From positions 1 to 42,959 of the IMG/VR virus record IMGVR_UViG_3300049811_000649: a stretch of 42,959 nt of DNA. One strand, given 5' to 3'. This DNA is from a virus. Within the stretch, counting starts at the first letter, position 1. Each line of letters opens with the position of its first letter. The notes beneath the pieces were generated by a model. It was not told where the DNA came from and did not search any database. It worked only from the letters and a program-made list of their open reading frames with translations. Below are positions 2,080 to 41,041 of the stretch, one piece after another. Both the position numbers and the translations under genes were made by a program.

Positions 2080-2166
2080 GGAGAGGTGGCAGAGTGGTTG
2101 AATGCGGCAGACTCGAAATCTGCTTTAGGGTCACACCTAACGTGGGTTCAAATCCCACCCTCTCCG
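2080..2166 (+). tRNA. tRNA-Ser (anticodon CGA)
   Basis: An 87-nt class II tRNA. The acceptor arms GGAGAGG (2080-2086) and CCTCTCC (2159-2165) pair perfectly and are followed by discriminator G2166; CCA is not encoded. The anticodon stem GCAGA/TCTGC encloses the loop CTCGAAA, giving anticodon CGA (serine, UCG codons). A long variable arm (TTAGGGTCACACCTAA region) fits serine tRNAs, and the T arm is GTGGG-TTCAAAT-CCCAC. The prophage attachment core begins inside this gene at 2105; the 3' 62 nt are phage-derived but identical, so the gene remains functional. Confidence 0.97.
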
Positions 2167-2181
2167 TTGTTTAAAAGCTTT
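2105..2181 (+). repeat. attL core (77-bp direct repeat, left copy)
   Basis: Positions 2105-2181 are identical to 41120-41196. The core starts just before the anticodon stem of tRNA-Ser and runs 15 bp past the tRNA end. Bases outside differ at once on both sides (G versus T at the left; T versus A at the right). This copy belongs to the intact tRNA gene. It is the classical arrangement for a tyrosine integrase using a tRNA 3' half as attB. Confidence 0.95.
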
Positions 2182-2249
2182 TTAAACCTAGATCAACGCG
2201 CACAGCTAAGGCAATTTTATTTACTTTTGCAGACTTTTGTTAAAGCAAG

Positions 2250-2284: not shown

Positions 2285-2326
2285 AGTACAAATAGATTAA
2301 CCCAAGTCGTAGCCTACAACATAGGT

Positions 2327-2704: not shown

Positions 2705-2749
2705 GGCGACAGAATGATTTAATTTAATTAAACATTTCCATTTTAAATT

Positions 2750-6433: not shown

Positions 6434-6519
6434 TAAGGTGCGAGGCAATTTGTGAATCGGTTGAGATTTTGAGCGTGGTGCCGGTTTAGTTTGTACTCAA
6501 CGAATTTAACCCAAAACCA

Positions 6520-9759: not shown

Positions 9760-9804
9760 GGGGGGTTAGGGGATTGGGGAAATGGGGAGGTGGGGTAATG
9801 GGGA
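9760..9804. repeat. G-run tract upstream of tail-tip gene (G-quadruplex candidate)
   Basis: At least six runs of four or more G on the plus strand are separated by 3-5 nt immediately upstream of the minus-strand start at 9759. It could fold as a G-quadruplex on the template strand, or simply be a cyanobacterial G-rich minisatellite. No convincing promoter for the tail-tip gene is visible here. Confidence 0.6.
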
Positions 9805-9832
9805 GAAGAAATAAAAGCTAATAGCTGACTGC

Positions 9833-9881
9833 TGATAGCTGATAGCTGATAGCTGATAGCTGATAGCTGATAGCTAAAAAG
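9833..9881. repeat. Seven perfect tandem copies of heptamer TGATAGC
   Basis: Seven exact consecutive TGATAGC units span 49 bp, flanked by degenerate AGCTAATAGC and AAAAGCTAAC. This is the style of the short tandemly repeated heptamers (STRR) described in cyanobacteria. It fills the spacer between the integrase stop and the tail-tip start. The copy number is likely to vary between strains by slippage. Confidence 0.9.
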
Positions 9882-9894
9882 CTAACTGTACTAC

Positions 9895-10950: not shown

Positions 10951-10964
10951 CGGTTTTCGTATTT
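10849..10964. repeat. 116-bp direct repeat, copy 1 (integrase 5' end)
   Basis: Positions 10849-10964 are identical to 11649-11764, offset exactly 800 bp. The repeat holds the last five codons and stop of the small membrane gene and the first 34 codons of int. The two copies bracket one repressor cassette. Confidence 0.95.
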
Positions 10965-11165
10965 TCTCAATTCCTCTAAGCTTCTTTCTAATTCGTCTGC
11001 TCTCTGTTGAGCTTCTTGGTTTTGTCGCTCTAAGCCGGTTTCACTTCCCGCTATGTCTGCCACGTTTCGCCACGCTTCTAAGGCAAAAAACCCCAATAGT
11101 AAAATCAAGCCAATTCTGACGATAATGCTGTCTATTTTCTTCTTTTCGTTGTTATTTAGGCTCAT
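10947..11165 (-). CDS. Small membrane-anchored coiled-coil protein
   Basis: A 72-residue protein encoded between repressor A and integrase. Residues 13-27 (IIVRIGLILLLGFFAL) form one membrane segment; residues 38-72 (TGLERQNQEAQQRADELERS and on) form a short coiled coil. Its ATG overlaps the repressor stop (ATGA) and its own stop overlaps the integrase GTG, so repressor, this gene and int look like one translationally coupled operon. A superinfection-exclusion or signalling role would suit a lysogen-expressed membrane protein, but this is inference only. No family recognised. Confidence 0.65.
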   Translation of the reverse strand: MSLNNNEKKKIDSIIVRIGLILLLGFFALEAWRNVADIAGSETGLERQNQEAQQRADELERSLEELRKYENR

Positions 11166-11527
11166 ACCACAATCTCTAATAGCATTTTTGCGAGTCTGAT
11201 TTTCTCTTGATTATCAAGAGAATCGGTTAAAACGAGGATAAAATCCTCAGCTTTTCGTGTTTGCGAATCGACTTGATATTTATTAGCAGTTTCTCTGGCT
11301 TTTGTAAAAGTGCCTCCTTCAAGGCTGCTTCTTAGTTGCGCTAACTCTATCCCTAAATAATCGGCAATTTTTTGTAAATTGTCGGTATCAGGGAAAGAAG
11401 CACCTCTAACGTAGGTTCCGAAAGCTGCTCTCTCAATATCAAGTTTTTTAGCAAAATCAGTCTGACTTTTAAAGTTTTTGGCATGAAGCTTTAAAAGTTG
11501 ACTCAACCTTTCCTTACGGATGTCCAT
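11162..11527 (-). CDS. CI-like repressor A (HTH_3/XRE type)
   Basis: A 121-residue DNA-binding protein. The helix-turn-helix is in KSQTDFAKKLDIERAAFGTY (about residues 20-39), followed by a conserved NLQKIADYLGIELAQL helix pair. The C-terminal region contains YQVDSQTRKAEDFILVL and ends EKIRLAKMLLEIVV, which is shared with the second repressor at 12502-12870, so the two are paralogs. There is no S24/LexA-like peptidase domain, so RecA-driven self-cleavage is not expected. It heads the coupled operon repressor A - membrane protein - int. A candidate operator with AAGTC/GACTT arms lies just upstream at 11546-11567. Confidence 0.85.
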   Translation of the reverse strand: MDIRKERLSQLLKLHAKNFKSQTDFAKKLDIERAAFGTYVRGASFPDTDNLQKIADYLGIELAQLRSSLEGGTFTKARETANKYQVDSQTRKAEDFILVLTDSLDNQEKIRLAKMLLEIVV

Positions 11528-11615: not shown

Positions 11616-11750
11616 TTAAAACCGAGTCTTGTATTGACTTACGGCACATTTAGCGGGTAGTGTTGCTCTTAAATATAAGCGATCGCCTTTTACTCTAATT
11701 TTAACCCGGACAAAACTTAAATTAATTTCGTCAATAGAAAGTTTTTTCAC
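11616..11750 (-). pseudogene. Duplicated integrase N-terminus, truncated
   Basis: The second copy of the 116-bp repeat recreates the GTG start and the first 34 codons of int (MKKLSIDEINLSFVR to LPAK), after which the frame runs into unrelated sequence and stops at TAA 11616-11618 (44 codons in all). It keeps the KYENR-TGA tail of the small membrane gene directly upstream, which has no gene of its own there. It is a recombination scar rather than a functional integrase, although a short peptide could be made. Confidence 0.85.
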
Positions 11751-11764
11751 CGGTTTTCGTATTT
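11649..11764. repeat. 116-bp direct repeat, copy 2
   Basis: Identical to 10849-10964. Recombination between the copies would remove exactly 800 bp, including repressor A and the small membrane gene, and leave int intact directly behind the 11769-12434 gene. Confidence 0.95.
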
Positions 11765-11768
11765 ATTG

Positions 11769-12434
11769 TCATCTGTTTGGAGTTGGCAAATAAGTTGGCT
11801 GATTTTCTGGTTGTTTTGTACAATTCTGAACAATTCCGCTTGTTAGGGCAAAAAGAAAAAACCCGATTGTGCAAATTTGAATCAAATCAAACTTAGGGGG
11901 TATTTTTAACCCACCTGTATCTGTTTGTAGTAAAACCCGTTCTTTTCGTTGTTCCCAAAAATATCGCTCAATTTCTAGCTTAAATAGTTTGTGCAATGCC
12001 ATTTCTAGACGTAAATCGCCCCAAAGCTCTTTTAAACTTTTGCCGCCCGAGTCAAAATTTAAAACGTCTCCAATCCTATCAGTTTTAACCACTTTTCCCC
12101 GTTTGAGGCTGGTAAAGTCAAGCCCAAAATCAACATAATCCTGCTCTGATTTACGATGCTCTATTCTCCACGCCCACACGAAAATCTCGAATTTTAAATC
12201 TTTATCTTTGCAAGTGATGGTTTTCTCGCTACCATCTTCAAAATGCACCGTACATTTAACGTTTTGTCCGTTTCCCTGCGTTAATCCCCCAATGATGCCG
12301 CCCACTGGGCCAGCTAAGAGAGAGCCAACTGTGTAACCTACTGTTGTCCAACCAATGCTTTTTTTAAATTCTGTCCCTGCTATCTCTATTTTGACAGGAA
12401 TTCGCTTATCTCGTGTGTTTTGTAGTCCAAACAT
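11769..12434 (-). CDS. Hypothetical membrane protein with glycine-zipper motif
   Basis: A 221-residue protein following repressor B by 67 bp. Residues ~30-55 (GYTVGSLLAGPVGGIIGGLT) form a Gly-rich hydrophobic segment of glycine-zipper type. The middle is soluble (KCTVHFEDGSEKTITCKDKD and then a charged helical stretch), and a second membrane segment is near the C-terminus (LIQICTIGFFLFALTSGIV). It is in the same position in its cassette as the small membrane protein is behind repressor A, so a phage-exclusion role in the lysogen is plausible but inferred. The stop lies just before the second repeat copy. No family recognised. Confidence 0.6.
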   Translation of the reverse strand: MFGLQNTRDKRIPVKIEIAGTEFKKSIGWTTVGYTVGSLLAGPVGGIIGGLTQGNGQNVKCTVHFEDGSEKTITCKDKDLKFEIFVWAWRIEHRKSEQDYVDFGLDFTSLKRGKVVKTDRIGDVLNFDSGGKSLKELWGDLRLEMALHKLFKLEIERYFWEQRKERVLLQTDTGGLKIPPKFDLIQICTIGFFLFALTSGIVQNCTKQPENQPTYLPTPNR

Positions 12435-12501
12435 ACTCGCTTCTTGAAATCTTTATCTCTATCATCGTTATTCTAATTTTCTTTGTCTGCGATCAAGATC
12501 A

Positions 12502-12870
12502 CTAAGTGACGGCAACATCTAACAAATGTTTAGCCAATCGAATTTTCTCTTCTGATGGCAAATCAGCGCAAATAACAAATAATCCCTCAGCTTTTGAAGT
12601 ATCAACCTGATAAACTGCTCCTTTTTCTTTGACTTTTATCGATTTTGGTACATTTGGATTTGTCAGTTGATGTTCTAGCTGCTCAAGAGAAAGCCCCATG
12701 TACTGAGCAATTTTGCTTAAATTTCCTCTCTCTGGGTATTTATCGCCTTGAATATAGGTGTTTAGCGTTCCGACCTTAATTCCAATCTGTCTAGCTAACT
12801 CAGATTGAGAACCACACTTTAAAACGTGAGTTTTCAATAAAGTTTGGAGGTTTTCTTTCGGTACGGACAT
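12502..12870 (-). CDS. CI-like repressor B (XRE type), paralog of repressor A
   Basis: A 122-residue HTH protein (SQSELARQIGIKVGTLNTY, about residues 22-40). I choose ATG 12870 (MSVPKENLQTLLKTHV), because it aligns with the start of repressor A; a GTG at 12894 would add eight residues. The C-terminus YQVDTSKAEGLFVICADLP then EKIRLAKHLLDVAVT is shared with repressor A. There is no autocleavage domain. It is divergent from the rightward early operon across a 158-bp control region that contains a palindromic operator and a good promoter, so this is probably the repressor that controls lytic transcription. Confidence 0.85.
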   Translation of the reverse strand: MSVPKENLQTLLKTHVLKCGSQSELARQIGIKVGTLNTYIQGDKYPERGNLSKIAQYMGLSLEQLEHQLTNPNVPKSIKVKEKGAVYQVDTSKAEGLFVICADLPSEEKIRLAKHLLDVAVT

Positions 12871-12913
12871 AGCGTTTTTGTAGTTTTTACCCACTACCCT
12901 AGCATTTTCTTTT

Positions 12914-12929
12914 AGTGATTGTCATCACT
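12914..12929. promoter_or_regulatory. Palindromic operator in immunity region
   Basis: AGTGAT-TGTC-ATCACT is a perfect 6+6 inverted repeat with a 4-nt centre, situated between divergent repressor B and the early operon, ~24 bp upstream of the -35 box. It is the best candidate binding site for repressor B. Its half-site differs from the AAGTC arms in front of repressor A, suggesting the two paralogs have different specificity. Confidence 0.6.
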
Positions 12930-12952
12930 TTTGTAAAAACTTTTTAAGTCTG

Positions 12953-12982
12953 TTGACTTTTATCCAAAGACATAGGTATAGT
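12953..12982 (+). promoter_or_regulatory. Rightward early promoter (PR-like)
   Basis: TTGACT (12953-12958) and TATAGT (12977-12982) are separated by 18 bp, a near-consensus sigma-70 promoter reading into the early genes. A short GTA trinucleotide run follows the -10 box. It should be the lytic promoter controlled by the neighbouring repressor. Confidence 0.65.
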
Positions 12983-13028
12983 AGTAGTAGTAGTAAACCT
13001 TCACTGCTACCTTTTGAGCATTAACATT

Positions 13029-13334
13029 ATGAGCGTTACGGCTTTAATTAACAGAATTGAAGAGCTAGAACGCGAGGTTAAGCTTTTAAAAACGTTTATG
13101 GAGGAAAACGTCAAAGTTAGCCAATTTTTACCCGTTTCTAAAGCAGCTTTAGTTCTTGGGGTTTGTACTGCCACTATTTACGATCGAATCAAACACGCTA
13201 AAGCTTTTCCTAAAGAATCGCTTTTTAAAAGAGGAATTCACTGGGAAGAGTACGAAATTGCTTCTAAAACCCCTGGCAAAGACCCCAGTATCCGTTATCG
13301 AGTAAATCCCGTTGAATGGAGGAAAATTTCCTAA
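13029..13334 (+). CDS. Coiled-coil / MerR-like HTH protein, copy 1
   Basis: A 101-residue protein, first gene of the early operon; I choose ATG 13029 (a TTG at 13014 is possible). A short N-terminal coiled coil (LINRIEELEREVKLLKTFME) is followed by LPVSKAALVLGVCTATIYDR, a MerR/excisionase-type HTH, then IKHAKAFPKESLFKRGIHW and a C-terminal IRYRVNPVEWRK. It is a clear paralog of the 14111 gene, and the two flank the antirepressor. Excisionase or Cro-like roles fit the position and the fold; I cannot choose between them. Its stop directly abuts the antirepressor ATG. Confidence 0.7.
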   Translation: MSVTALINRIEELEREVKLLKTFMEENVKVSQFLPVSKAALVLGVCTATIYDRIKHAKAFPKESLFKRGIHWEEYEIASKTPGKDPSIRYRVNPVEWRKIS

Positions 13335-14111
13335 ATGTCTGATTTAACTGTTTTCAATCAAGAATTAGCCCAACGGTTAGTTAACTCTGACGACCAGTTC
13401 CCCGTTGACTTTGAACTGGCTTGGCAGTGGTTAGGTTATGCCACAAAGCAGAAAGCTAAAAACAAGTTGCTCAACAACTTCGAGCAGGACATTGATTACG
13501 CACTTAACCAAACGGTTAAGTGCCATAAAGCTAGTAGTGGCGGCGGCTCCAGTCTTTACCTAGAAATCAAGTTAACCATCGACTGTTTTAAATCTCTGGG
13601 CATGATGGCCGGGACTGAGCAAGGGAAAGAAATACGCAGGTATTTTCTGAACTGCGAACGGATCGTCAAAGAAGTCATACCGGCACAAAGCGATCGCATT
13701 CGGGAATTGGAGTTACAGAATCTTGTCCTCGACAAACAGATCCGCTCCAAGGAGCTTGACCACTCGATGTTGATCCTACACGGCGCGCCTCTTGTCCTTG
13801 CATTAAGAGGACGGGACGACCAGATTGTCGAGGTAGAGAAAAAAATTCTCGAAGTTATTGACGAGCGCTGTGGCGATCGACGGAAAGGAATGACCACCGC
13901 TCAGTTAAACGCTTATCTAAAGCAGAAAACCGGATTTAGTTTTAAATCGGGTGCTGAACTGGAACGGTATCTCCAAAAGCACGCCCCAGAGCTTCTCGAC
14001 TTAGTACAGCGTGCCGTTAATCAGTCTTTCGTCAACGAAGAAAATATTGAGCAAGCGATCGCTGTTCTTTCTCGTGGCAGTCGTCAATTATTAATAGGAG
14101 AGCAAGAGTAA
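13335..14111 (+). CDS. AntA/AntB-type antirepressor
   Basis: A 258-residue protein. Residues ~22-110 match the AntA antirepressor pattern: VDFELAWQWLGYATKQKAKN, then a strand with LYLEIKLTIDCFKSLGMMAG and TEQGKEIRRYFLNCERIVKE. A helical linker follows (DRIRELELQNLVLDKQI) and then a C-terminal domain of unknown type (MTTAQLNAYLKQKTGFSFKS and ELERYLQKHAPELLDLVQ). Such proteins bind repressors and relieve lysogenic control, which suits repressors without a self-cleavage domain. It overlaps the next gene at the stop (TAATG). It sits between two paralogous HTH genes. Confidence 0.82.
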   Translation: MSDLTVFNQELAQRLVNSDDQFPVDFELAWQWLGYATKQKAKNKLLNNFEQDIDYALNQTVKCHKASSGGGSSLYLEIKLTIDCFKSLGMMAGTEQGKEIRRYFLNCERIVKEVIPAQSDRIRELELQNLVLDKQIRSKELDHSMLILHGAPLVLALRGRDDQIVEVEKKILEVIDERCGDRRKGMTTAQLNAYLKQKTGFSFKSGAELERYLQKHAPELLDLVQRAVNQSFVNEENIEQAIAVLSRGSRQLLIGEQE

Positions 14112-14422
14112 TGAACAGTTTACAAGATAGAATCACAGCCTTAGAGCGACAAAACGCCGAATTAAAGCAAGAACTCAAGCAAATTAAGGATTTCTTGCAA
14201 GTAGGGCAGTTTATTAAGCCCCTAGAGGCTTCCAAGATTTTAGGGATTAGCACCCACACCATATACAACCGAATCAAGCACTGCAAGGCTTTTCCCAATA
14301 AATCCAAGTTTAAAGAAGGTGTCCACTGGATACAGAAAAATTTCCCCTCCGCAGAAGAAGGGGAAGTAACAATCCGATACTACGTTAATCCAACAGAGTG
14401 GCAAAAAGCGGAGCAAGTGTGA
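14111..14422 (+). CDS. Coiled-coil / MerR-like HTH protein, copy 2
   Basis: A 103-residue paralog of the 13029 gene. The N-terminal coiled coil is longer in heptads (DRITALERQNAELKQELKQI), then LEASKILGISTHTIYNRIKH, CKAFPNKSKFKEGVHWIQKN and IRYYVNPTEWQKAEQ. The three blocks IKHxKAFP, GxHW and IRYxVNPxEW are shared between the copies. Its GTGA end overlaps the next start. It probably binds DNA, either as an excisionase/recombination directionality factor or as an early regulator. Confidence 0.7.
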   Translation: MNSLQDRITALERQNAELKQELKQIKDFLQVGQFIKPLEASKILGISTHTIYNRIKHCKAFPNKSKFKEGVHWIQKNFPSAEEGEVTIRYYVNPTEWQKAEQV

Positions 14423-14589
14423 TTTCTTACAACGACGACCCCGAAAAAGCGAAAGAAGCGGTGCGTATAGCCAACGAAAACGCAAAACAAGCTTATAAAG
14501 CCGGAAAACGTGACTTTCGCATTCATGGACTCGATCCAGACCGGATCGATAAAAGCGGACTAAGACCTCAGAAAGGATGGGAATTATGA
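14419..14589 (+). CDS. Small charged early protein
   Basis: I choose GTG 14419, overlapping the upstream TGA, with GGAG six bases before it; this gives 56 residues (MISYNDDPEKAKEAVRIANE...). The open frame also allows a GTG at 14398. The protein is a helical, Lys/Glu/Asn-rich domain (AKEAVRIANENAKQAYKAGK) ending in FRIHGLDPDRIDKSGLRPQK. It has no recognisable family. Overlaps with both neighbours argue that it is translated as part of the early operon. Confidence 0.5.
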   Translation: MISYNDDPEKAKEAVRIANENAKQAYKAGKRDFRIHGLDPDRIDKSGLRPQKGWEL

Positions 14590-14918
14590 AGAAACTGGTG
14601 GTTACTCCTGAGTTACAAAAAAAGGCGACTGATTGGGTAGTTGGGCTAAAACGGGCGATTAAGCGCAAAAACGCCAATAACGTAGCCAAGCGTTACAAAT
14701 ACGAAAATACCTATCTCCCCGATATTGCCGAAAACCTCAAAGAAGACGACCTGATCAAGTTCAGCCCTCAACCCAACGCTTCTGTATCGATAGTCCTGGG
14801 TATCGAAAACCCGATTCAGGGGCGACTAACTTTAAAGCTTCAAAAGAAAACCAACGGTGAGATTTTCTACCATCCCACCCCGACAAACCGAACATTTTGG
14901 AAACAACGGGAAGAATAA
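14586..14918 (+). CDS. Hypothetical early protein
   Basis: A 110-residue protein; ATG 14586 overlaps the preceding stop (ATGA) and is preceded by a GGATGGG stretch. The N-terminal half is basic and helical (ELQKKATDWVVGLKRAIKRK), the C-terminal half looks beta-rich (ASVSIVLGIENPIQGRLTLK). A nucleic-acid role is possible from the charge, but no family is recognised. The TAATG overlap couples it to the DUF3102 gene. Confidence 0.55.
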   Translation: MKKLVVTPELQKKATDWVVGLKRAIKRKNANNVAKRYKYENTYLPDIAENLKEDDLIKFSPQPNASVSIVLGIENPIQGRLTLKLQKKTNGEIFYHPTPTNRTFWKQREE

Positions 14919-21159: not shown

Positions 21160-22416
21160 TTAAAGAAACCGCGCTCGAACCTTAGCCGTCGCTTCAGCCG
21201 CCGTTATCGTGCCGTCACCATTGCTATCAAGCCCTCGGTTTTGGGTGTAAGCAATGGTACCCCGTCTAAACAAAACAAAGTTAGCACCATTACCGATCGC
21301 CACTGGAAACAATATCGCCATATAGCAATCTTCAAGCGATCGAATGCGTCCCTTGTAAGGTTGAAAATATTTTTCCACCCAATCTAACTGCTCGATTTCC
21401 GACATTTGAGCGAGGGCTTGGGTGGTCGTTCCTAACCCTCTAGCAGTAGCGGGCATAAATTGAATTAGTCCAGTAGCTCCTGATCCGGCGGCATTGCGAA
21501 TATCAGAACTAAATCTTCCCCCCGTCTCGAAAGACATACAGGCCATCAGCCAATTTGGATCAATCTGTAACCGCTTGCAAATTTCAATTACCTTTACTCG
21601 GAACGGGCGATCGGTGCGCTCGATCCCGATCACTCTTTTCAACCCATCAAAATTACTTTGAGCCATGAAGGGAAAATGCGCCCAAGTAAAGTCGATGCTA
21701 CCCGTTTGTTCCCCGCAAGCGATCGCTAATTCCTCACCAGAATAAAGCAGATTTTCGCCCCTAGTATTCGTATAAGGGCGCGTTCTGCGGGTCTCAAAAT
21801 TCCACTGACCAAAAGGATCGTTTACCCAAAAATCTCCAGAATTTTCAAAACCTCTCAAAACAATTAGATGTCCTGATCTGGTAAACCTACCCGAAATCAC
21901 GACTGGGTTATCATCGGCTAAATGCTTGCGAATTTCTCCCCAAGTCGCTTGGGTTGTGAATCTATTACCGATGCCGTAGGTTTTTAGTAACCAATCAAGA
22001 TCGGCGTGTACTAATATGTTTTTGCCGCTTCTTTGCATTAACTGGTAAAATTCGTCTTCTAATTGTCCTTTTTTAGCTTTAATCCCAAAATAAGCGGCAA
22101 CCATAGCCATACAGGTAACGTTGCAAGTTCTAGAAGGGTCAAACTTGTTATCACGCTGAGAAAAGTAAGGCACATCTAAATTAACCGTAGTTGCCCTTAA
22201 ATGGGGAACAAAGGCGTGCCAGTTAAACCTTCCTTTGATTGGCTCTTTTAGCTCAAAACGGATGTGATTATTGGCTGCGCTTAACTGCCAATTTATCTCA
22301 ACACTGTCGCCGGCTTTTAACTCAAAGGTATCAAAATCACCGGGTAAATCTAAACTTGCAGAATCAAGTGGATGGGTTTTTAATAAAGTATTGACTTGGG
22401 CGGTTAATCTTTTCAT
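21160..22416 (-). CDS. Bifunctional endolysin: C39-like peptidase plus SLT domain
   Basis: A 418-residue protein. The N-terminal ~75 residues are beta-rich and may bind the cell wall. Residues ~78-200 form a papain-like C39_2 peptidase: VPYFSQRDNKFDPSRTCNVT with C98 (C102 nearby), SGHLIVLRGF with H173 and VNDPFG with D190. Residues ~260-370 form a lytic transglycosylase/lysozyme-like domain with SFETGGRF (E277) and GLIQFMPATARGLG. Near the C-terminus LDSNGDGTITAAEA is a complete EF-hand/dockerin-type calcium loop (D387, N389, D391, E398). The two cuts (peptide and glycan) suit a lysis enzyme, and calcium may stabilise it. There is no signal peptide, so it needs a holin. It is on the minus strand between replication and packaging genes. 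Confidence 0.82.
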   Translation of the reverse strand: MKRLTAQVNTLLKTHPLDSASLDLPGDFDTFELKAGDSVEINWQLSAANNHIRFELKEPIKGRFNWHAFVPHLRATTVNLDVPYFSQRDNKFDPSRTCNVTCMAMVAAYFGIKAKKGQLEDEFYQLMQRSGKNILVHADLDWLLKTYGIGNRFTTQATWGEIRKHLADDNPVVISGRFTRSGHLIVLRGFENSGDFWVNDPFGQWNFETRRTRPYTNTRGENLLYSGEELAIACGEQTGSIDFTWAHFPFMAQSNFDGLKRVIGIERTDRPFRVKVIEICKRLQIDPNWLMACMSFETGGRFSSDIRNAAGSGATGLIQFMPATARGLGTTTQALAQMSEIEQLDWVEKYFQPYKGRIRSLEDCYMAILFPVAIGNGANFVLFRRGTIAYTQNRGLDSNGDGTITAAEATAKVRARFL

Positions 22417-30825: not shown

Positions 30826-30870
30826 CTGCTGTCCACATTTAAATTAATCTTGTCCTTTTTCTTAAAAACT

Positions 30871-31656
30871 ATGGCTGTTAAAAACCGCTATATCGCTGGT
30901 CAAGGTGAGATTTTTTTAGACGAAATCGATCCGATTACAAAAAAGGCTATGGGTAAAGCCCGCTTTGTGGGTAACGTTCCCGATGGCGGCTTTATGGTGA
31001 CGATCGCTGTAACCAAATACGAACACGCCGAAAGTTACACGGGCAATCAGTTAATCGATCTATCGATCGAGAGAAACCCGGTAGTAACTGGGATGTTGCG
31101 ATTGGAAAGCTACGATCTCGACAATTTAAAATTCTGCTTGTACGGGCAATCGAGCAACTTAGCAACGGCAACCGTTAGCGCTGAAGCTCACAAGGCGTAC
31201 AAGGGCTATAGTTTTCAGCTAAATCGACTCAATTTAACCTCTTTTACTAGCCTAACCAATACTGGGGGAACTCCTGCTTCCTACGAAGTGGGAACCGATT
31301 ACACCGTCGATCTTAAATCGGGCATGGTGACAATTTTGGAAGCCGGCGATATTCCCGATAACTCCGATGTGCGCGCTAATTATGTGGCCGGGGCAGCAGA
31401 ACGAGTCAACGGCTTCACCTCTCCCAATAAAGAGCTTTACCTAATTTACAACGGGGTCAATTTAGCTGAAGATCGCAAGCCGTTTAAATTGGAAGTTTTC
31501 CGAGCTAGATTCCAGCCGGCCAAAACCCTTGATCTGATTACTCCTAACAATGCGATCGCTAACTTAGAGTTAGACTTTACAGCCCTTTATGAGGATGCTT
31601 TAAACGATCAGGCAGGTTTTGAGGGTGGTTTCTTTAGAATGACGCAAACGGTTTAA
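30871..31656 (+). CDS. Major tail tube protein
   Basis: A 261-residue protein, ATG 30871 (MAVKNRYIAGQGEIFLDEID); a 21-bp upstream extension is unlikely. It is beta-rich with DGGFMVTIAVTKYEHAESYT, VTGMLRLESYDLDNLKFCLY, YEVGTDYTVDLKSGMVTILE and KPFKLEVFRARFQPAKTLDL, typical of long-tail tube proteins; the middle may contain an Ig-like insertion. It is followed 2 bp later by the tail chaperone pair and then the tape measure gene, the standard siphophage order. Confidence 0.8.
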   Translation: MAVKNRYIAGQGEIFLDEIDPITKKAMGKARFVGNVPDGGFMVTIAVTKYEHAESYTGNQLIDLSIERNPVVTGMLRLESYDLDNLKFCLYGQSSNLATATVSAEAHKAYKGYSFQLNRLNLTSFTSLTNTGGTPASYEVGTDYTVDLKSGMVTILEAGDIPDNSDVRANYVAGAAERVNGFTSPNKELYLIYNGVNLAEDRKPFKLEVFRARFQPAKTLDLITPNNAIANLELDFTALYEDALNDQAGFEGGFFRMTQTV

Positions 31657-31658
31657 TC

Positions 31659-32078
31659 ATGGCTAAAAAAGAATTGTTGGTTTTAATTCCGAATCGCTCG
31701 TTTGCCACCAGTGCCGGGGAAATTGTTCTCAAGCCGTTTAAGTTTAAGCAGTTTTCCCAAGCTTTGGAAATTGTGCAAAGATATTTCGATCTGTTTTCTA
31801 CCTACGAAGGAGCGGAAGCGATCGCAAAAGCTTTGTTTGAAAAGGTTGAGAACGGCAATTTTGAAATCTTAGACGATATCGATCTGTTGATCGATTTGGT
31901 GTCTGGGGTGAAAGTTTCTGAATCCGATCTGGCTTACGACGAAGTTATCGGGCTGTTAGTCGAGGTGATCGATATGAACATGGATTTTTTCTCCCGGATA
32001 AGTCAGAAGATAGCCAAAACGGACGAAAAAGCGACCGAACCGAGTCTGAAGACTGGGGAAGACGAGTTAGCCGCTTAA
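31659..32078 (+). CDS. Tail assembly chaperone G (unshifted product)
   Basis: A 139-residue acidic, helical protein (FKFKQFSQALEIVQRYFDLF, NFEILDDIDLLIDLVSGVKV), similar in size to lambda gpG (140 aa). It should bind the tape measure protein and recruit tail tube subunits. Residues 109-111 (DFF) are encoded at a slippery heptamer, and a minority of ribosomes should shift to give the G-T product. Confidence 0.85.
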   Translation: MAKKELLVLIPNRSFATSAGEIVLKPFKFKQFSQALEIVQRYFDLFSTYEGAEAIAKALFEKVENGNFEILDDIDLLIDLVSGVKVSESDLAYDEVIGLLVEVIDMNMDFFSRISQKIAKTDEKATEPSLKTGEDELAA

Positions 32079-32263: not shown

Positions 32264-35200
32264 ATGGCGCGAGATTATTCTGGTTTTAAGGCAGTTGTTG
32301 AGGCGATCGACACTTTACGAGAAAAAGTAGAAATCGAAAACAACAAACAGCTAACGGTGACTCGCGCCCTCCGTGAGGATCAGCGCTTACAGTTGCCCCT
32401 GCTGCGTTCCGTGGCGCAATCTCTGCGAGCAAGGGGGGCGGGTATTCGCAATAATTTAACGGCGGTTCCTGACCGGGTAGAATTTAGTAATTTAAAGCTA
32501 CAGACTAATTCGATTACTTTATCGGCTAAATCGGTTGTTTTAGAAACAAACGGTAAAGGTGGAGATAGAAGAGAAAGCCAAGATAATGAGCGATTGGCTA
32601 AATCAATCGGGAAGGAGCTTAAAAATATTAAGCTTAAAAGCGATACAGGGTTAAAATTAATTTTTGCGGGAATATTCACTGGAATTGGGTTTCAGATTGG
32701 GGGCGAAATTGCCCGGGGATTTGAAAAATCTTTTGGACAAAAAACAGGATTTACTTCTAGAAAAGCAGGGCAAGCTGTTGGCGACGTTGCTGCATTTCCT
32801 GTAGAAAAAATACAGTCTTTAAAGTTTCCAGAAAAATTAAAAGAATCTGCTGATTATTTTGTTGCAAAAATTAAAAGTATTCGTTACGGAATAGGAGAAG
32901 CTTTAGCAAGTGCAATCGAACAAGACGGGGATTTTTCAACTAAAGCACAAACCTTTGGGGAGATTTTACAAACAGAAGGGAAAAAATTTTCCAATCAAAT
33001 TAACGACGATTTAAATGACAGTGCTGAAAACTTTATTAAATCATTACAGGAAATACCTAGTTTATTAACTTCTCCTTTAGATTCTTGGTTAAGAAGCTTT
33101 AGACAAGAGGCATTAAAAGACATAGGAGTTAATTTAGTCAAGGAAAGAGCAGCTGTTATTTCTAAGGAGAATAAAAGACGAAGTTCTGTTAGAGCTATTG
33201 ACGATAAAACAGAAGAATTAATTATTGCAGTTGGTGGGTACGCTGGTGCTAGGGGTTTATCAGGACAAAGAATTCCCAAGATTTTATTAGAACAAACCGA
33301 GGATAATGTAGCGGCAATTGCTGTTAATAATCCTTCTACGGATATTCCCGGTGAAGTCTTGTCCGATCGAGAAAAGCGATGGAAGGCAACGCTAGGAAGT
33401 GTTGCCCGACCTAATATTAGGGGATATTCTCCCGATGCGATTGAAATGGCCGCTCAAGCAATGGCCGCTTTACAAAAAAATCCTGAAATAAAAATTAGAC
33501 TGGTGGGAGAAAGTGGCGGCGGTTTTGTTGCGGAAGAAGCTACGGCTTTATTAAATTTATTAGGTTATAAGGATCGAGTTGTCGGTGTTGGAATTGGGAC
33601 TCCTGATTTAATTGGTGGGTTAGAGCAAGAAAATTATAGAAAAATTATTTCTCCCGATGAGCCGCTTGGCCATGTCGCTGAAGAGTTACAAAAATTTGGA
33701 TTAGCTAAAAAAACAGAAGATCAACAAATAAAAGGAGCTACTCAGCATCCTATTGAAGGTTATATTAATTTGCCAGAAATTCGCAAGAATTTGTTTGGTG
33801 ATTCTGAAACAACAGCAGGAGAATCTAGAAAAGTTTTAGAATTTGTCGAATTTAATACTAAAGCGGCGGAAAAAGCTAATACAGAAGGTGGGAAAAAATA
33901 TTACAAAGGTCAATTTGAAGCAAATTTAAAAGAGGTTCAAGATCGGATTCAAAAAGCGACAGGTAAAACTGTTTTAAAAAATCTTAAACAAGCGGAAATT
34001 TTATTACAGTCTGCTTTGCAAAAATTAGAGGCACCTGCAGCGAGCGAGCCAAAGGATTTAAAAATATTAGACAAATACATCTTATATCTCGATCAATTAG
34101 TCGAGCAAGCCAAAAAAGAAGCCTCCGAGCGAATTAAAATTCTTGTCCCTAATTATTCTGATTTAACTATTCCAGAAAAAAAAGTCTTTGCCGGAAACTT
34201 TAGCAAAGACATTGATAAAGATATTAAAAAATTTCGCATGGCTGTTGAGGATTCCGAGAACGAAATAGCTGTGGAAATTGGGGAAAGAATCCTAGAAACA
34301 ATTCAGCCAATTCGCAAAATTTATCAAGAGTTATTAGAAATTCTGCCTCCTGATTTAAGTGGGACTCAATCAATCAGAGCGCAAATAGGAAAGCTTACCA
34401 AAATACAAAATGAGGTTTTAAAGGGACAGCCAAAGGTAAAAGGAAACTCACCAATAGGTCTAACTCAAATTGTTGGCAACGAAACCGCCGAGGGATTTGT
34501 GGCAGGAATTGAGGAAAAATTAGGCGATGTTAATGCCAGTGGTGAACAGTTAGGAGAAGAAGCAATTAAGGGGGCTAAAGAGCGTTTAGATATTGCCTCA
34601 CCTTCTAAGGTATTTGAAAAATTAGGAATACAAACAGGGGAAGGTTTTGAGCAAGGAGCGAAAAAATCTTTAACGAAAGCGTCAGCAACTATTAAAAAAG
34701 AAATTGAGGATTTTATTTATGCGATTGGAAATCGTCTAAAAATGGTCGATTCCGATTCATCAGGACTCAACCAAAAAGATTTAATTGAGACTTGGTTTTT
34801 AGGCGTTACACCTTTTAACGATTCTGACAGAATTGTAGAATCAGTACAGTTAGAATCGCAACGATTATCAAGGGGGGGGAAAAAGAAAAATGTAACGGGA
34901 TTTGATGAAAGTATTAAAGCAATTCAAGCTCGACTTAAAACGCTTCACTCAAACATTTCTCGTTTTGAGGAATTAATCGTATTAAACGAAGTATATATTC
35001 GAGCTTGGGAGCGAGTATCAAGAGGCATTAAAAACACAAAAATGCCTGTAATTGACAGTTCTGAGATGGAGCTTAAATCTACTCGTGCTTTCTATAAACC
35101 TAGCAACCACACAGTTAAATTTGACAAGTCAATTATAAAAAATATTGGATCACAAGTTTTTCTGGGCGAAGATTTATCAACAATATTGCACGAGTTAAGG

Positions 35201-38200
35201 CATTCTATTCAAGACGAAATAGAAGACAGGTTAGCTAACGTAGAACAAGTTTTAAATAGCAAAATATCCAAAAAAAGAAAACAAAGAATTTTAGAAGGTG
35301 CAAAATCGAGTAATAATTCAGCTTTAAGTCAATGGGAGAACGTATTTCAATCTCCTTATCCAGAATCAAGAAAGCAAAAGAATTATCAGCGTGAAATTGA
35401 TGCCTATTTCTATGATACTAAAAACTTTTTTAGCTTTAGAAGTCGCATAGAAAAAGAGTTTAGGAATATTGGCACTGCTGCTGTAGAAGGTTTTACTTCT
35501 GGGGTAAACAGTCAAAAAGAAGTAGCTATTGATGTTATTGCTACGGTAATTGATGATGTCGTTGAAACGACCGAAGATATACTAGGAATTCAATCCCCTT
35601 CTAAGGTATTTGAGCAAATTGGGGCTTTTGTGGTAGAAGGGTTTAACAAAGGTGTAGAAAAAGTTAAACAAGTAGAATTTTTAAATAATTTTGCTACAAA
35701 TGCTCAACAACAGATTGATTCTACCAAGGAAGTTATTAACCAAGGACTAGATCAGGTTGTTGACGCTTACGAAAATAAATTTACTACTGTTGATAACTTT
35801 TTAGCTAACACCTTTAATAATATTTATGACGGGTTTAATCAATTAGTTGAGGGATTGTTTGAGCAGTTCCCCGCCTTAAAACAATTGGTTGATATATTCT
35901 TAGGGCTTGGGGCTGGTTTTTTAGTCGGTCAAGCCTTAGAGGGGTTGGTGGGTTGGTTGTCTGGTGTAGCAGATGCGACCTTTGATGCCGTGCTACAAGC
36001 TGAATCTTTAGAACTTGCTTTTACCTCTCTTAGTGGCGGTGCCGAACAGGGTGCCAAAGGATTAGCCTTTGTCAGGCAAGAAGCCCAAAGGTTGGGATTA
36101 GAACTAAAAACCGCGGAAGAAGCCTACGCCGGCTTTACCGCCGTCACCCGGTTTACTCCGTTACAAGGATTTCAAGCAGATAAAATATTTAGTTCTTTTG
36201 CCGAAACCGCCGCGTTGAGGGGATTTTCTTCTGAGGAACAGTCGCGGATGTTTGCCGCGATAAATCAGATGATTTCAAAAAGAAAGCTGTCCGCCGAAGA
36301 GGTGCGTGGCCAGTTGGGAGAAATATCTGGTTTAGCCTTTGAGTCAACCCTAGCCAGAGCTTTAGGTTTAAATGCCGCTCAAATGAACGAACAAATGAGC
36401 GAAGGATTGCTGATCGTGGAAGACGTGCTTCCTAAAGTTGCCGCTCAATACGCCGCTCAAAATTCGGCTATCGCAACGGGTAACGAAACGTTAGCTCAAA
36501 GTTTAAATCGCTTAAATAACGCAGTTGTAACCTTACAAAGGTCTTTTGCCAGTTGGATAGAAAAATTTAAAATTGCTTTCAATGTAGCCACAGCAGTAGT
36601 GGAAAATTTAATTCCCGCTATAGAACTGTTTATTAAAGCTCTTTCTAATGCTGGTTTAACTATATTTTTAGATACTTTAGAATCATTGATTAAATATGGT
36701 CTTAAATCTAATGCTGTTTTAAGTGTTTTTGTTAATTTCCTAAAAGCTGTAGCGTCTCTAATTCAGTATGCAATCCCTCACTTAGTCGAGTTTGCTGGTA
36801 AATTTATTTTAGTTTCCCTTGCAGTTGATTCTTTGTGGAATGCTTGGAAAATATTTCAAAATAATCCTTTTCCAGGATTAAGCAAAAGTATTGAAGATGC
36901 GACGGCAAATGTAAGAGCTTTAGAGCAAGCTTTAAACAAAACGGCTGCGGCTACTCAATCGGTTAGTCTGCCTAAATATGAAGATTTAAAAGTAAAAGAA
37001 GGCTGGAATTTATTCGGAATTGACACAGGGATTAATCTTGAAGGATTGCGGGCAATGACCGCAAGGCAAATTTATAATCCTCGCACGGGAAAAACTGAAA
37101 CCTATGGTGGTACGACTTTAGCTCAATCTAATTTAGGTAGATTTCAAGAGCAAGTAGCGGATCGGTTAGCAAAAGCCGATCAAACTTTATTTCAACAACC
37201 AGAGGTTGAAAAAACTTTAAAAAACATTCAAGAATTAGACAAGGAATTAACCAAGGCTCGTTCTCGTCGTTTTCAAATACCGGCAGGAGACCGTACAGCC
37301 TATGAAGAATCAGTGGCGGCCGAACAGAAGCTCTTAGAACAGCGAGATGAGTATCTCAAAACCACCGCTCAATTTCAGCAGAACTTAGAAGCCGATAAAA
37401 ATGCAATCACCGAGGCAATTAAGTTGTTAGACGGGTTAGTCGCCCGACGGGAAATTACAGCCGATGCTGAGAAATCCCTGCGCGCTTCCCTAGAGGCAAG
37501 ATTAAAGGATGTAGAGACCACCTCTCGAACCTTTGAAGATTTGGCTTCTACCCTAGCCAAACAGGTGAACGCACTCTCGATCGCCCTGCGTAACTTAAAT
37601 GAAAACGCAACTTTCTTTAACGAGAACTTGGAGCGCACCGCCACTAATGCCCGTGTGCAATTTATCCGACGGGCAAGAGAGGCAGGGTTAGGCTCACAAA
37701 TTGCAGACGCGGGCATTGAGCAGATCGAAACTCAAACCTTAGACACACGCCTAGGATTTTTGCGTGACCAGTTGGGAGCCGTTAACGAATACCTTTCTAA
37801 ACCCGATTTTGCCGATTTATTAGAAGAATTGCGGCAACAGGCTGAAGATGCCGGAATTAATCTGGAAAACACCGCCACAATTGATCGCTTAATCGGGGAA
37901 AATCGTTCTCAACAGGAAACGGCGGTTTTAAATGCCCTGAAAGAACAGTTACGCCTAAAAACCGAGATTGGGCAAACTGAGGAGAATTTAGAGCAGTCTA
38001 TCCGACAAATGGGGTCAAATTTGCGTGACCTAAGCAGCTCGGTAGAGGACTTCTTTTTCAATTTAAATCAGCAGATACAGGAGGCGCTAGTAGAAGTCGA
38101 TCGCCTATTGAATAAGTTAAAGTATGCCGATATCAAGGGCAAACTACAAAGAGCGCTCGTTCCTGGATCGGATACTTTCGTTAACGGGCTGGTGTCGCAA

Positions 38201-41041
38201 ATTCAGGGGATTTTCGATCAAGCCTCTGGCATTGTTGAACAGTTATTAGGTCAGCGATCGGCGCGGATTAATTTCGTTGGGGAGCGGCGCGGCTTACAGT
38301 TTGAGTTAGAGAATTTTACTCGTAACTTGGGCGGGGCGACGGAAGCCCTAGAGCTTTTCCGTCAGGGCTTGGTGGGGTCGGGGCAAGTTCAGGCTCCTAG
38401 CAATAATATTCTCCCAGTTCCAAAAGCCCCCGCAAGCGGCCAAGGGAAATTGCCGCCGCCGCCCCCCGCAATGGGGTTAAGGCAAAATATAGGGAATTTA
38501 ACAGATGCTCGCTCCTTTGCCCCTCTTTTTGACCTCCTTTTTAAAGGAGAAGGTAACGAAAATTCTGTTAATCGTGGAGTGGCCGGGGATACACCAGGGG
38601 GACTGAGAGCGCTTTTTGGACGGGATGCAGCACAGTTTACGGTGGGAGAAATTCTTAATTTACAAAAACAGCGCCGCATCTTTGCCGTGGGGATGCCGCA
38701 ATTTATCCCCTCTACTCTTCGCGATGCGGTTAAAAATTCAGGGATTTCTCTTGATACCCCTTTTAATCTGCAAACCCAACAAAAATTAGCGATCGAGCTT
38801 TTCAAAAATAAGCGCCCAGAGATTTGGAAATATTTAAGTGGCAAATCAAATAATTTAATCGAAGCGGCTCAAGGCATGGCCAGAGAATGGGCGGCCATTG
38901 GATTATCCTATCCCGAAGCAGGTCGAGGGGTTGGGGTTAGTCGTTATGCCGGAACTGCTGGAAACGCGGCAAGTATTAGCCCCCAACAGGTTCAACAGGC
39001 ATTAATTCAAACTAGACAAAATTTAACGGGGACAAACGGGGGAAATCTAGAAACGGCATCGGCACAATTACCAAATGTTAATAACGAACAGGCAACCAAT
39101 TTAACCAACACCTTGATCGGCATTAAAAACCGACAAATTAACCTAGGCGACGCTACAGTTCGGCAGGAAATAGAGAATTTTATCCTTAATCTCAATCAAA
39201 CTAAGGAGACAATTCTCCAGCAGATGGGCGACACTATTCGTCAGAGCCGGCAATCGGTGGTTGATGCTCAAAATTCTTTAATTGACGCAAGATCGCAGTT
39301 TTCCCCTCAAACCCAAACCTCTCAATTAGAGTCGGAATTGCGCGGGGTAGAAAATCAATTCCGAGGCCTTGATACTCAGCTATTCGAGCAGGAAAGGGGA
39401 CTACAGGATAATATTACAGGGTTAGATAAGTTACTGTCCGAAATTCAGCCAATTATCGAGTTATTGCAGTCCTCTGGCAATGCCGTCGATCAAGAATCAG
39501 CCAAATTTTTACAAGGACTGATCGGAAAAATTGAAAGCGATCGCACTTCCTATCAAGGAATGCTTACAGAAATTCAAGGACTAAGAGGTGAACTCAAACA
39601 AGGCAAAATTGACGCTGAAAACTTTGTGCAAGCGCAAGCCAAGCTTAGAAGGATTCAGGCTGACCTGGAACGAATCGGCACGGAATTAACGATCGCCCAA
39701 CAGCAAAATAATCTCGAACAGGAACGAGCGATCGCTCTCTTGCAATCTAGGCAGCAGTTAGAAGCGGACATTCTCCAAATCAGCAACGATTTTGCCGATA
39801 ACGAAACCGAACGCACCCGACGGCTTGAACTGGCACGGGAGCAAGCACGTTTACAAGAAAAAGAAATTGAGTATCAATTCCAGTCAAAAACCTTGACCAG
39901 AGAAATTGAGTTAATCAATCAAAGGTTAGCGATCGCTCAAAACCTAACCAATTTGGGTATAACCAACGAATTACAGATCAGGCAATCCCAGAAACAGCTA
40001 GAACAGGAAATCCTCGAAATCAAACAGCAGTATCCTGACTTAGCTGAACAGGAGTTGCGGATCGAGTTGGCCAAACAATCTGCTTTACAAAGGGAAAGAC
40101 AGATCGAGAACGAATACCGAAACCAACGGTTACAGCGAGAACAAGAGATACTCGACATTGAGAACCAAATCGCCGAACGGTTGGCTGAACAGTTAGAGGC
40201 AAGGGGCGATAATTTTGCCGCCGCTTCCCTGCGAGAACAGGCGGCTTTTGCGGCTGAACTCTTACGGTACGAGCAGGAAATCGAAGCGATCCGACAACGC
40301 TACCCCGACGACCAGCAACGGGCTGACGAATTGATCCGCAAGGCGACGACCCTAAGAGATTTAAACCTGAGTGCTATTGATCGGCAGTTTCAAGATTTGG
40401 GCGAAACTTTGCGGGGCTTGGCTACCGATTCCTTTGCCACTTTCCTAACCGATGTTTTGACAGGATCAAAGTCGATTGGTGATGCCTTTGCTGATATGGC
40501 CAAAAATATTCTCGCTTCTATTGCTCAAATAGCGGCGCGAATGGCTATCTCTGGTTTATTCAATTGGCTAAACATCGGATTTGCCGAAGGTGGGACGGTT
40601 CCCAATTTTGCCGAAGGTGGGGAAGTTCGGAAAAATTTACCGATTTTAGATAGTATCCAATCGGCTTTACAAAGCGAGGGGCCGCGAGGAGTTCTGGCAG
40701 TGTTCACCCCAGGAGAGGAAATTTTAAGCCTTCGCACTGGGGAAGCCCAACGCTACCAAAGCTTAAAGGCTAAATTCGGAAAAGACCCGCTTAAACAGTT
40801 TGCTGGTAATTTCGCTTTCGGTGGATCGGTCAGCGATCGCTTGCTAGATAATCTTGCTCCTACCCCGTCGGTAACGTTGCCAATTTCGGCACAATTCGAT
40901 CTGACCAATTCAAAAGCTACCCCGCCGATGGCCAATAATAAGACCGTGGTGGTTAACGTCACCACGCCCGATGTGGCGGGCTTCAAAAAATCCGAGCGAC
41001 AAATTGCCCGGGAGGTTTACGAATATATGCAGCGAGCCTAA
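32264..41041 (+). CDS. Giant tape measure protein with embedded enzyme-like domains
   Basis: A 2925-residue protein that should set tail length and be ejected into the host. In order: basic N-terminus with a Gly-rich hydrophobic segment (~129-150); an alpha/beta-hydrolase-like domain (~316-510; AVGGYAGARG, RLVGESGGGF with S417, GIGTPDLIGG, SPDEPLGH); an IASPSKVFEKLG motif at ~777-788; a zincin-like domain (~800-1060; ILHELRHSIQDE with H976, E977, H980 and QREIDAYFYD with E1044); a second SPSKVFEQIG at ~1111; the conserved tape-measure domain (~1245-1400); membrane segments (~1460-1530); coiled coils; a lysozyme-like domain (~2085-2245; FKGEGNENSVNRG with E2096, VGMPQFIPSTL); Gln/Glu coiled coils (~2290-2720); and a lambda-like C-terminus with FAEGG repeats. 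The ATG directly follows the T stop. Confidence 0.9.
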   Translation: MARDYSGFKAVVEAIDTLREKVEIENNKQLTVTRALREDQRLQLPLLRSVAQSLRARGAGIRNNLTAVPDRVEFSNLKLQTNSITLSAKSVVLETNGKGGDRRESQDNERLAKSIGKELKNIKLKSDTGLKLIFAGIFTGIGFQIGGEIARGFEKSFGQKTGFTSRKAGQAVGDVAAFPVEKIQSLKFPEKLKESADYFVAKIKSIRYGIGEALASAIEQDGDFSTKAQTFGEILQTEGKKFSNQINDDLNDSAENFIKSLQEIPSLLTSPLDSWLRSFRQEALKDIGVNLVKERAAVISKENKRRSSVRAIDDKTEELIIAVGGYAGARGLSGQRIPKILLEQTEDNVAAIAVNNPSTDIPGEVLSDREKRWKATLGSVARPNIRGYSPDAIEMAAQAMAALQKNPEIKIRLVGESGGGFVAEEATALLNLLGYKDRVVGVGIGTPDLIGGLEQENYRKIISPDEPLGHVAEELQKFGLAKKTEDQQIKGATQHPIEGYINLPEIRKNLFGDSETTAGESRKVLEFVEFNTKAAEKANTEGGKKYYKGQFEANLKEVQDRIQKATGKTVLKNLKQAEILLQSALQKLEAPAASEPKDLKILDKYILYLDQLVEQAKKEASERIKILVPNYSDLTIPEKKVFAGNFSKDIDKDIKKFRMAVEDSENEIAVEIGERILETIQPIRKIYQELLEILPPDLSGTQSIRAQIGKLTKIQNEVLKGQPKVKGNSPIGLTQIVGNETAEGFVAGIEEKLGDVNASGEQLGEEAIKGAKERLDIASPSKVFEKLGIQTGEGFEQGAKKSLTKASATIKKEIEDFIYAIGNRLKMVDSDSSGLNQKDLIETWFLGVTPFNDSDRIVESVQLESQRLSRGGKKKNVTGFDESIKAIQARLKTLHSNISRFEELIVLNEVYIRAWERVSRGIKNTKMPVIDSSEMELKSTRAFYKPSNHTVKFDKSIIKNIGSQVFLGEDLSTILHELRHSIQDEIEDRLANVEQVLNSKISKKRKQRILEGAKSSNNSALSQWENVFQSPYPESRKQKNYQREIDAYFYDTKNFFSFRSRIEKEFRNIGTAAVEGFTSGVNSQKEVAIDVIATVIDDVVETTEDILGIQSPSKVFEQIGAFVVEGFNKGVEKVKQVEFLNNFATNAQQQIDSTKEVINQGLDQVVDAYENKFTTVDNFLANTFNNIYDGFNQLVEGLFEQFPALKQLVDIFLGLGAGFLVGQALEGLVGWLSGVADATFDAVLQAESLELAFTSLSGGAEQGAKGLAFVRQEAQRLGLELKTAEEAYAGFTAVTRFTPLQGFQADKIFSSFAETAALRGFSSEEQSRMFAAINQMISKRKLSAEEVRGQLGEISGLAFESTLARALGLNAAQMNEQMSEGLLIVEDVLPKVAAQYAAQNSAIATGNETLAQSLNRLNNAVVTLQRSFASWIEKFKIAFNVATAVVENLIPAIELFIKALSNAGLTIFLDTLESLIKYGLKSNAVLSVFVNFLKAVASLIQYAIPHLVEFAGKFILVSLAVDSLWNAWKIFQNNPFPGLSKSIEDATANVRALEQALNKTAAATQSVSLPKYEDLKVKEGWNLFGIDTGINLEGLRAMTARQIYNPRTGKTETYGGTTLAQSNLGRFQEQVADRLAKADQTLFQQPEVEKTLKNIQELDKELTKARSRRFQIPAGDRTAYEESVAAEQKLLEQRDEYLKTTAQFQQNLEADKNAITEAIKLLDGLVARREITADAEKSLRASLEARLKDVETTSRTFEDLASTLAKQVNALSIALRNLNENATFFNENLERTATNARVQFIRRAREAGLGSQIADAGIEQIETQTLDTRLGFLRDQLGAVNEYLSKPDFADLLEELRQQAEDAGINLENTATIDRLIGENRSQQETAVLNALKEQLRLKTEIGQTEENLEQSIRQMGSNLRDLSSSVEDFFFNLNQQIQEALVEVDRLLNKLKYADIKGKLQRALVPGSDTFVNGLVSQIQGIFDQASGIVEQLLGQRSARINFVGERRGLQFELENFTRNLGGATEALELFRQGLVGSGQVQAPSNNILPVPKAPASGQGKLPPPPPAMGLRQNIGNLTDARSFAPLFDLLFKGEGNENSVNRGVAGDTPGGLRALFGRDAAQFTVGEILNLQKQRRIFAVGMPQFIPSTLRDAVKNSGISLDTPFNLQTQQKLAIELFKNKRPEIWKYLSGKSNNLIEAAQGMAREWAAIGLSYPEAGRGVGVSRYAGTAGNAASISPQQVQQALIQTRQNLTGTNGGNLETASAQLPNVNNEQATNLTNTLIGIKNRQINLGDATVRQEIENFILNLNQTKETILQQMGDTIRQSRQSVVDAQNSLIDARSQFSPQTQTSQLESELRGVENQFRGLDTQLFEQERGLQDNITGLDKLLSEIQPIIELLQSSGNAVDQESAKFLQGLIGKIESDRTSYQGMLTEIQGLRGELKQGKIDAENFVQAQAKLRRIQADLERIGTELTIAQQQNNLEQERAIALLQSRQQLEADILQISNDFADNETERTRRLELAREQARLQEKEIEYQFQSKTLTREIELINQRLAIAQNLTNLGITNELQIRQSQKQLEQEILEIKQQYPDLAEQELRIELAKQSALQRERQIENEYRNQRLQREQEILDIENQIAERLAEQLEARGDNFAAASLREQAAFAAELLRYEQEIEAIRQRYPDDQQRADELIRKATTLRDLNLSAIDRQFQDLGETLRGLATDSFATFLTDVLTGSKSIGDAFADMAKNILASIAQIAARMAISGLFNWLNIGFAEGGTVPNFAEGGEVRKNLPILDSIQSALQSEGPRGVLAVFTPGEEILSLRTGEAQRYQSLKAKFGKDPLKQFAGNFAFGGSVSDRLLDNLAPTPSVTLPISAQFDLTNSKATPPMANNKTVVVNVTTPDVAGFKKSERQIAREVYEYMQRA

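Follow-up and report, generated by a model that had tools for sequence, protein, structure and literature searches.

A single uninterrupted frame in a cyanobacterial prophage encodes, as judged from its sequence, a tape measure protein (TMP) in which three enzyme-like domains are embedded, namely an alpha/beta-hydrolase-like domain and a putative metallopeptidase upstream of the TMP core, and a lysozyme-like domain downstream of it. We favor, with a probability of about 0.5, the reading that this is a polyvalent, multi-enzyme TMP of a temperate siphovirus-like cyanophage, whose N-terminal cargo half would be delivered last. The window, i.e., the whole stretch of DNA analyzed here, corresponds to a 42959-bp virus record and contains the whole prophage. 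An initial annotation of this DNA had already placed three enzyme-like domains within one TMP of a cyanobacterial prophage, and each of the three gained support in the present analysis.

Setting and identity of the tape measure protein

The frame proposed for the TMP was checked and found to be open over all its 2925 codons, and its identification as a TMP was confirmed by several means. Pfam TMP_3 (PF20155) matched aa 1245-1428 with 61.3 bits against a curated cut-off of 41 (E 1.4e-16), and the 2925-aa protein also matched a large number of tape-measure families in PHROGs and, in a PDB sequence search, three TMP chains of solved structure. Its gene comes after the genes of a major tail protein with an Ig-like domain and of a tail chaperone, within a head-tail cluster that also has terminase, portal and major head protein genes. 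As a TMP, the product would be expected to set the length of the tail and to be ejected. The motifs named in the initial annotation were found at the expected residues (AVGGYAGARG at 322, GESGGG at 415 with S417, GIGTPDLIGG at 443, HELRH at 976, E1044, E2096 and VGMPQFIPSTL at 2142). The genes scanned in the window included none for a sheath, and hence a siphovirus-like tail would be expected. The TMP has no Cys and seven His residues in all, six of which lie within the hydrolase and zincin segments.

The virus is integrated in a cyanobacterial chromosome. Direct att repeats of 83 nt bound a 39-kb prophage (Table 1). In two cyanobacterial genomes the repeat core occurs within an intact tRNA-Ser next to the same UbiA gene (90-92% identity for UbiA). 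The TMP gene is the final phage gene ahead of attR, and the tail-tip genes (a hub-like gene at 3310 and a DUF2460 gene at 4826) are found at the attL end, so that in the circular genome attP would lie between the TMP and the tail tip. Other features of the prophage were a probable tyrosine integrase (9895-10950, minus strand), with its C-terminal sequence judged by eye; an identical 116-nt direct repeat (10849-10964 and 11649-11764), near which lie two similar HTH repressor-like ORFs (11162-11527 and 12502-12894); and short tandem repeats within several phage ORFs (17577-17732, 15339-15422, 19342-19430 and 29551-29652). An endolysin-like protein (21160-22416, minus strand) resembles a C39-type peptidase combined with a lytic transglycosylase, and its C-terminal part matches baseplate-hub families. 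In a related Nostoc locus (L004), the terminase-like ORF (2107-4716) carries an apparent intein, a HINT-like insert recognized by eye.

Table 1. Features of the prophage and of its tape measure protein (positions in the window)
Feature	Position	Strand	Basis
attL repeat within tRNA-Ser(CGA) 2079-2167	2102..2184	+	
Major tail protein with Ig-like domain	30850..31656	+	phrog_807
Tail assembly chaperone	31659..32078	+	phrog_1442
Tape measure protein ORF, 2925 aa	32264..41041	+	open frame, TMP_3, PHROGs, solved TMP chains
Alpha/beta serine-hydrolase-like domain, aa 311-514	33194..33805	+	homologue profile, AF2 model, Foldseek
S417, proposed nucleophile (GESGG)	33512..33514	+	Ser in 27/30 aligned copies
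D465/E466, proposed acid, either one	33656..33661	+	Asp and Glu each invariant among close relatives
H495, proposed catalytic His (HPIEGY)	33746..33748	+	His in 26/26 aligned copies
First SPSKVF repeat, aa 779 region, N-terminal of the zincin	34587..34626	+	
Zincin-like metallopeptidase domain, aa 882-1070	34907..35473	+	
HExxH, H976-E977-x-x-H980	35189..35203	+	invariant in zincin alignment
E1044, candidate third zinc ligand	35393..35395	+	invariant in zincin alignment
Second SPSKVF repeat, aa 1111 region, C-terminal of the zincin	35583..35622	+	
TMP core, aa 1237-1523 (Pfam TMP_3 1245-1428)	35972..36832	+	
Lysozyme-like domain, aa 2086-2251	38519..39016	+	
E2096, candidate catalytic Glu (GEG)	38549..38551	+	Glu in 8/9 homologues
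Weak Tape_meas_lam_C match, aa 2720-2766, under curated cut-off	40421..40561	+	
attR repeat, 75 bp past the TMP stop codon	41117..41199	+	83 nt, 98% identical to attL

Three enzyme-like domains

The segment upstream of the zincin had been described as alpha/beta-hydrolase-like with S417 as the nucleophile, and this description is supported by the homologues. A G.S.G motif is expected 0.9 times by chance in a protein of this kind and is uninformative by itself, so the nucleophile was assigned from the conservation of Ser and His among the aligned copies (Table 1). The acid (D465 or E466) and the His (H495), which had been left unnamed, were located from the alignments of homologues. Close relatives (41-52% identity) occur in other long ORFs, and distant ones were reached with a profile built from homologues; Ser, acid and His are kept down to about 20-27% identity, with D at the second position of the acid site (DP motif) in the distant copies. 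The nucleophile is replaced by Cys in one copy, and a Ser-less AHGYG is found in gp048 of the Aphanizomenon phage CL131 and in its relative L053. This loss of Ser in one copy type is what would be expected if the domains had decayed, or served as mere spacers or structural bulk of the tape measure, but the catalytic residues are kept in nearly all the other copies across 20-27% identity, and we regard that explanation as very improbable.

The window segment had no named match in Pfam, PHROGs or PDB sequence searches. Structure prediction of this domain gave a modest result: the AlphaFold2 model, obtained from a five-row alignment, had a pTM of 0.59 and a pLDDT of 56, and was low around the acid and the His. 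In Foldseek searches of the PDB this model matched cutinases, Rv3802c, acetylxylan esterase and LysB (E from 7e-5, probability 0.97-1.00), and in the viral library the best match was a 'tape measure domain protein' (E 2.5e-11), followed by A0A2H4PAQ8/PAQ7 and then by several Lysin B proteins. The length and accession of A0A2H4PAQ8/PAQ7 fit CL131 gp048/gp047, and they were taken as such. The fold part of the proposal is favored by this modest model. No family-level match accompanied it: neither the cutinase family (PF01083) nor LysB matched the window sequence at that level, and the relative L017 reached the cutinase family with an E of 0.0095, below the cut-off. A cutinase or LysB filing was consequently dropped, and the domain was filed as alpha/beta-hydrolase-like only. 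The model favors an alpha/beta-hydrolase fold for aa 311-514, and the alignment supports a conserved Ser-Asp/Glu-His set.

The hydrolase domain recurs with the TMP core. After removal of duplicates (L029, same contig as L018; L052, with matches identical to those of L050), 15 distinct ORFs (window, L001, L003, L004, L005, L012, L014, L015, L016, L017, L018, L028, L049, L050 and L059) combined it with a homologous core, and in all of them the hydrolase was N-terminal to the core. The TMPs of L049 and L050 bear two copies each. Capture of an ordinary cellular hydrolase in the ORF by chance was rejected, since the strong matches were confined to very long ORFs: among 386 cyanobacterial genomes all six of them (E < 1e-50) were within ORFs of 1647-3854 aa, and the long-ORF carriers were TMP or MuF proteins wherever they could be identified.

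For the zincin, the residues chosen in the initial annotation proved to be the right ones. The only invariant columns in the alignment, scored over eight sequences from five contigs with 14-19% identity to the window, were H976, E977, H980 and E1044 together with one Pro and one Ala, and HExxH with the third-ligand Glu was present in every aligned copy, that of L050 included. The chance expectation of HExxH from the composition of the protein is about 0.0015. One family member matched Pfam DUF6782, 'putative metallopeptidase' (E 1.5e-6); the window zincin itself had no named match in Pfam, PHROGs or PDB sequence searches, and a sequence scan of the viral set with it returned no relative. The AlphaFold2 model was poor (pLDDT 50, pTM 0.36) and its Foldseek rows were without significance; selecase, jannalysin and the BlaR1 zinc metalloprotease domain appeared at E > 3 and were set aside as no evidence. 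The conserved residues agree with the claim, and the alignment supports aa 882-1070 as a putative gluzincin-type metallopeptidase with a conserved HExxH...E.

In the window the zincin is flanked on both sides by SPSKVF repeats. Six distinct TMPs bear a zincin (window, L017, L024, L025, L026 and L050), which is upstream of the core in every case; L024 and L026 have two copies each, and hydrolase and zincin occur together in the window, L017 and L050 proteins. Thus, up to two serine hydrolases and up to two zincins were found per TMP. The zincin TMP of L025 is apparently split into two ORFs (11684-14755 and 4935-10985) with one zincin each, either by a frameshift or as two genes.

The lysozyme-like segment also gained support, and its Glu, E2096, was again well chosen (Table 1). 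The domain was matched by phrog_37890 (1e-42) and the region also by the phrog_90 endolysin profile; for phrog_37890/phrog_90 the E-values were 1e-42 with the whole protein and 6e-11 with the region. It matched 92 phage records, for the most part of Synechococcus phages, and homologues are held by the 'late control gene D' protein of S-CAM7 (51% identity), by cyanophage hub/endolysin proteins and by the annotated TMP of Burkholderia phage BgManors32. No curated lysozyme Pfam family matched the domain, and no lysozyme was named among its four PDB profile matches, so that the enzyme class was deduced from the annotations of homologues, and aa 2086-2251 can be described as lysozyme-like and putatively muralytic. 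The family searches gave an endolysin-type PHROG for this part but no lysozyme Pfam, and left hydrolase and zincin unnamed. The muralytic part varies among related TMPs, with M23 plus a DPBB lytic transglycosylase in L001 and M23 plus VanY in L012.

Probable order of exit and proposed fate of the N-terminal half

In lambda, A-1(L), JBD30, T5, 80alpha and TP901-1 the C-terminus of the TMP is at the distal tip of the tail (PMC10721106, PMC10966104, PMC11445458, PMC5099701). By analogy, the chain of the window TMP would run along the tail and have its C-terminal end at the distal tip, so that at ejection the lysozyme would leave first, opening the peptidoglycan, and the hydrolase last. The hydrophobic core would then insert in the inner membrane, and the N-terminal cargo half, with hydrolase and zincin, would be the final part to exit. 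The serine hydrolase might cut an ester (or amide) bond, the most likely target being, as a guess, either a membrane lipid or another host molecule, and its place of action might be at or inside the inner membrane, again as a guess. In all six TMPs that bear it, the zincin is situated C-terminal of the N-terminal region and ahead of the core, in a place suited to processing the cargo, and it would most likely cleave the chain so that the cargo is released or activated. Zincins interspersed in delivered phage proteins have been proposed to process the chain or to act as effectors (PMC5512222). We infer the order of exit, the target compartment, the substrate and the processing from these comparisons.

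The initial annotation had proposed that outer-layer lipids, proteins and peptidoglycan are cut in that order as the protein is ejected, as an adaptation to the layered cyanobacterial envelope. Three enzyme-like domains within one tail protein, and the A-1(L) hub with its several hydrolases (PMC10966104), are in line with this proposal, but the C-terminus at the tip of the solved tails would reverse the order of exit, and the adaptation had the cyanobacterial distribution as its sole basis. Furthermore, copies of the hydrolase borne by MuF proteins are in the wrong position for an initial cut of the outer layers. Ordered cutting from the outside inwards is thus improbable.

The MuF-borne copies were found in two loci (L027 and L057), in which the hydrolase domain follows a MuF-type minor head domain (phrog_115, E 4e-22, in L027). 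In CL131, gp047 and gp048 are directly upstream of the TMP gp049, and gp048 (1811 aa) carries three hydrolase copies, of which two retain Ser and His and the third is degenerate; repeated Cys motifs (KCKVGKxCGDxCIPK) are found near its hydrolase copies (L030, 7435-12903). That the domain is found in TMPs, in MuF head proteins and in the product of a gene adjacent to a TMP gene indicates that it travels among proteins that are expected to be ejected or packaged, and the MuF-borne form suggests a general cargo that enters along with the DNA, more than an enzyme for cutting outer layers. Together with the location of hydrolase and zincin N-terminal to the core, this fits a delivered cargo of the polyvalent type.

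Once delivered, the N-terminal enzymes might be cytoplasmic effectors against the host or competing phages (counter-defence, takeover), instead of envelope enzymes. The MuF-hydrolase fusions resemble MuF polymorphic toxins and polyvalent proteins, metallopeptidase domains occur in 20% of the putative MuF toxins (PMC5576092, PMC5512222), and N-terminal cargo would exit last; the nearest folds, however, are those of lipid or polymer esterases, and the proposal would require a target as well as TMP N-termini that reach the cytoplasm. We hold it to be rather unlikely. Alternatively, the TMP, or other proteins of the virion, could be processed by the zincin ahead of tail assembly or in its course, with the N-terminal domains removed or kept near the neck. 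Its site between N-terminal region and core would suit such a role, DdrB of P1 undergoes processing ahead of packaging, for which its zincin has been proposed as the protease (PMC5512222), and TMP cleavage has been inferred in T5 and JBD30 (PMC11445458). This role would leave the conserved serine hydrolase, often present without a zincin, unexplained, and we see it as unlikely, though worth keeping in view. The cargo reading that we prefer has difficulties of its own: in most relatives the hydrolase occurs with no zincin, which means that release by the zincin cannot be general, and folded 20-kDa domains side by side may be a poor fit for the tail lumen.

Relation to known systems and significance

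Muralytic domains in TMPs, zincins in polyvalent proteins and cyanophage hubs with several hydrolases are all known already. The muralytic TMPs of TM4, T5 (pb2), phiIPLA35 and BgManors32 (gp59) embed, as the window TMP does, peptidoglycan-hydrolase-like domain(s), and that of gp59 is a homologue of the lysozyme-like domain of the window; relative to them, the window TMP has two further domains ahead of its core, a serine hydrolase and a zincin. Polyvalent proteins are likewise large and multidomain, with HExxH...E zincin(s) between their domains and sometimes lysozymes, and are virion-delivered (PMC5512222), whereas the carrier here is a TMP. Their MPTases fall into 12 published clades (PMC5512222), and the words 'tape measure', 'hydrolase' and 'lipase' are absent from the main text of that work. 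The cutinase-fold esterases, mycobacteriophage LysB among them, share the fold match of the model and the Ser-acid-His order, but LysB is a separate lysis enzyme, and the hydrolase of the window is part of a tail protein and has no family-level match. In MuF polymorphic toxins the effector domains are C-terminal on MuF minor head proteins (PMC5576092), as in the MuF-hydrolase fusions found here, while the window carrier is a TMP with its cargo N-terminal to the core. The hub gp15 of Anabaena phage A-1(L) is also a cyanophage tail protein with several hydrolases, comprising lysozyme, endoglucanase and peptidase domains, two of which are active on host cells (PMC10966104); it is a hub and not a TMP, and its enzymes differ from those of the window.

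Among the open-access titles and abstracts listed, none described a TMP that bears a serine hydrolase or a zincin as cargo, an absence of little weight. Hydrolase and zincin are members of a seemingly undescribed set of swappable cargo domains on cyanobacterial virus proteins that are probably sent into the cell. On this basis we tentatively suggest, as a possibility that we would not put above the alternatives combined, that the N-terminal half of cyanobacterial phage TMPs is a modular effector-delivery vehicle, delivered last into the host and with its cargo freed by the zincin, so that the TMP would work much like a secretion system, as a polyvalent carrier of effectors in parallel to the MuF head proteins. 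The analysis points to a recurrent architecture of cyanobacterial-phage TMPs, with conserved serine-hydrolase and zincin domains ahead of the core, that Pfam and PHROGs leave unnamed, and this architecture bears on the role of the N-terminal part of the TMP during DNA entry, for which the isolated phage CL131 offers a laboratory system for hydrolase carriers.
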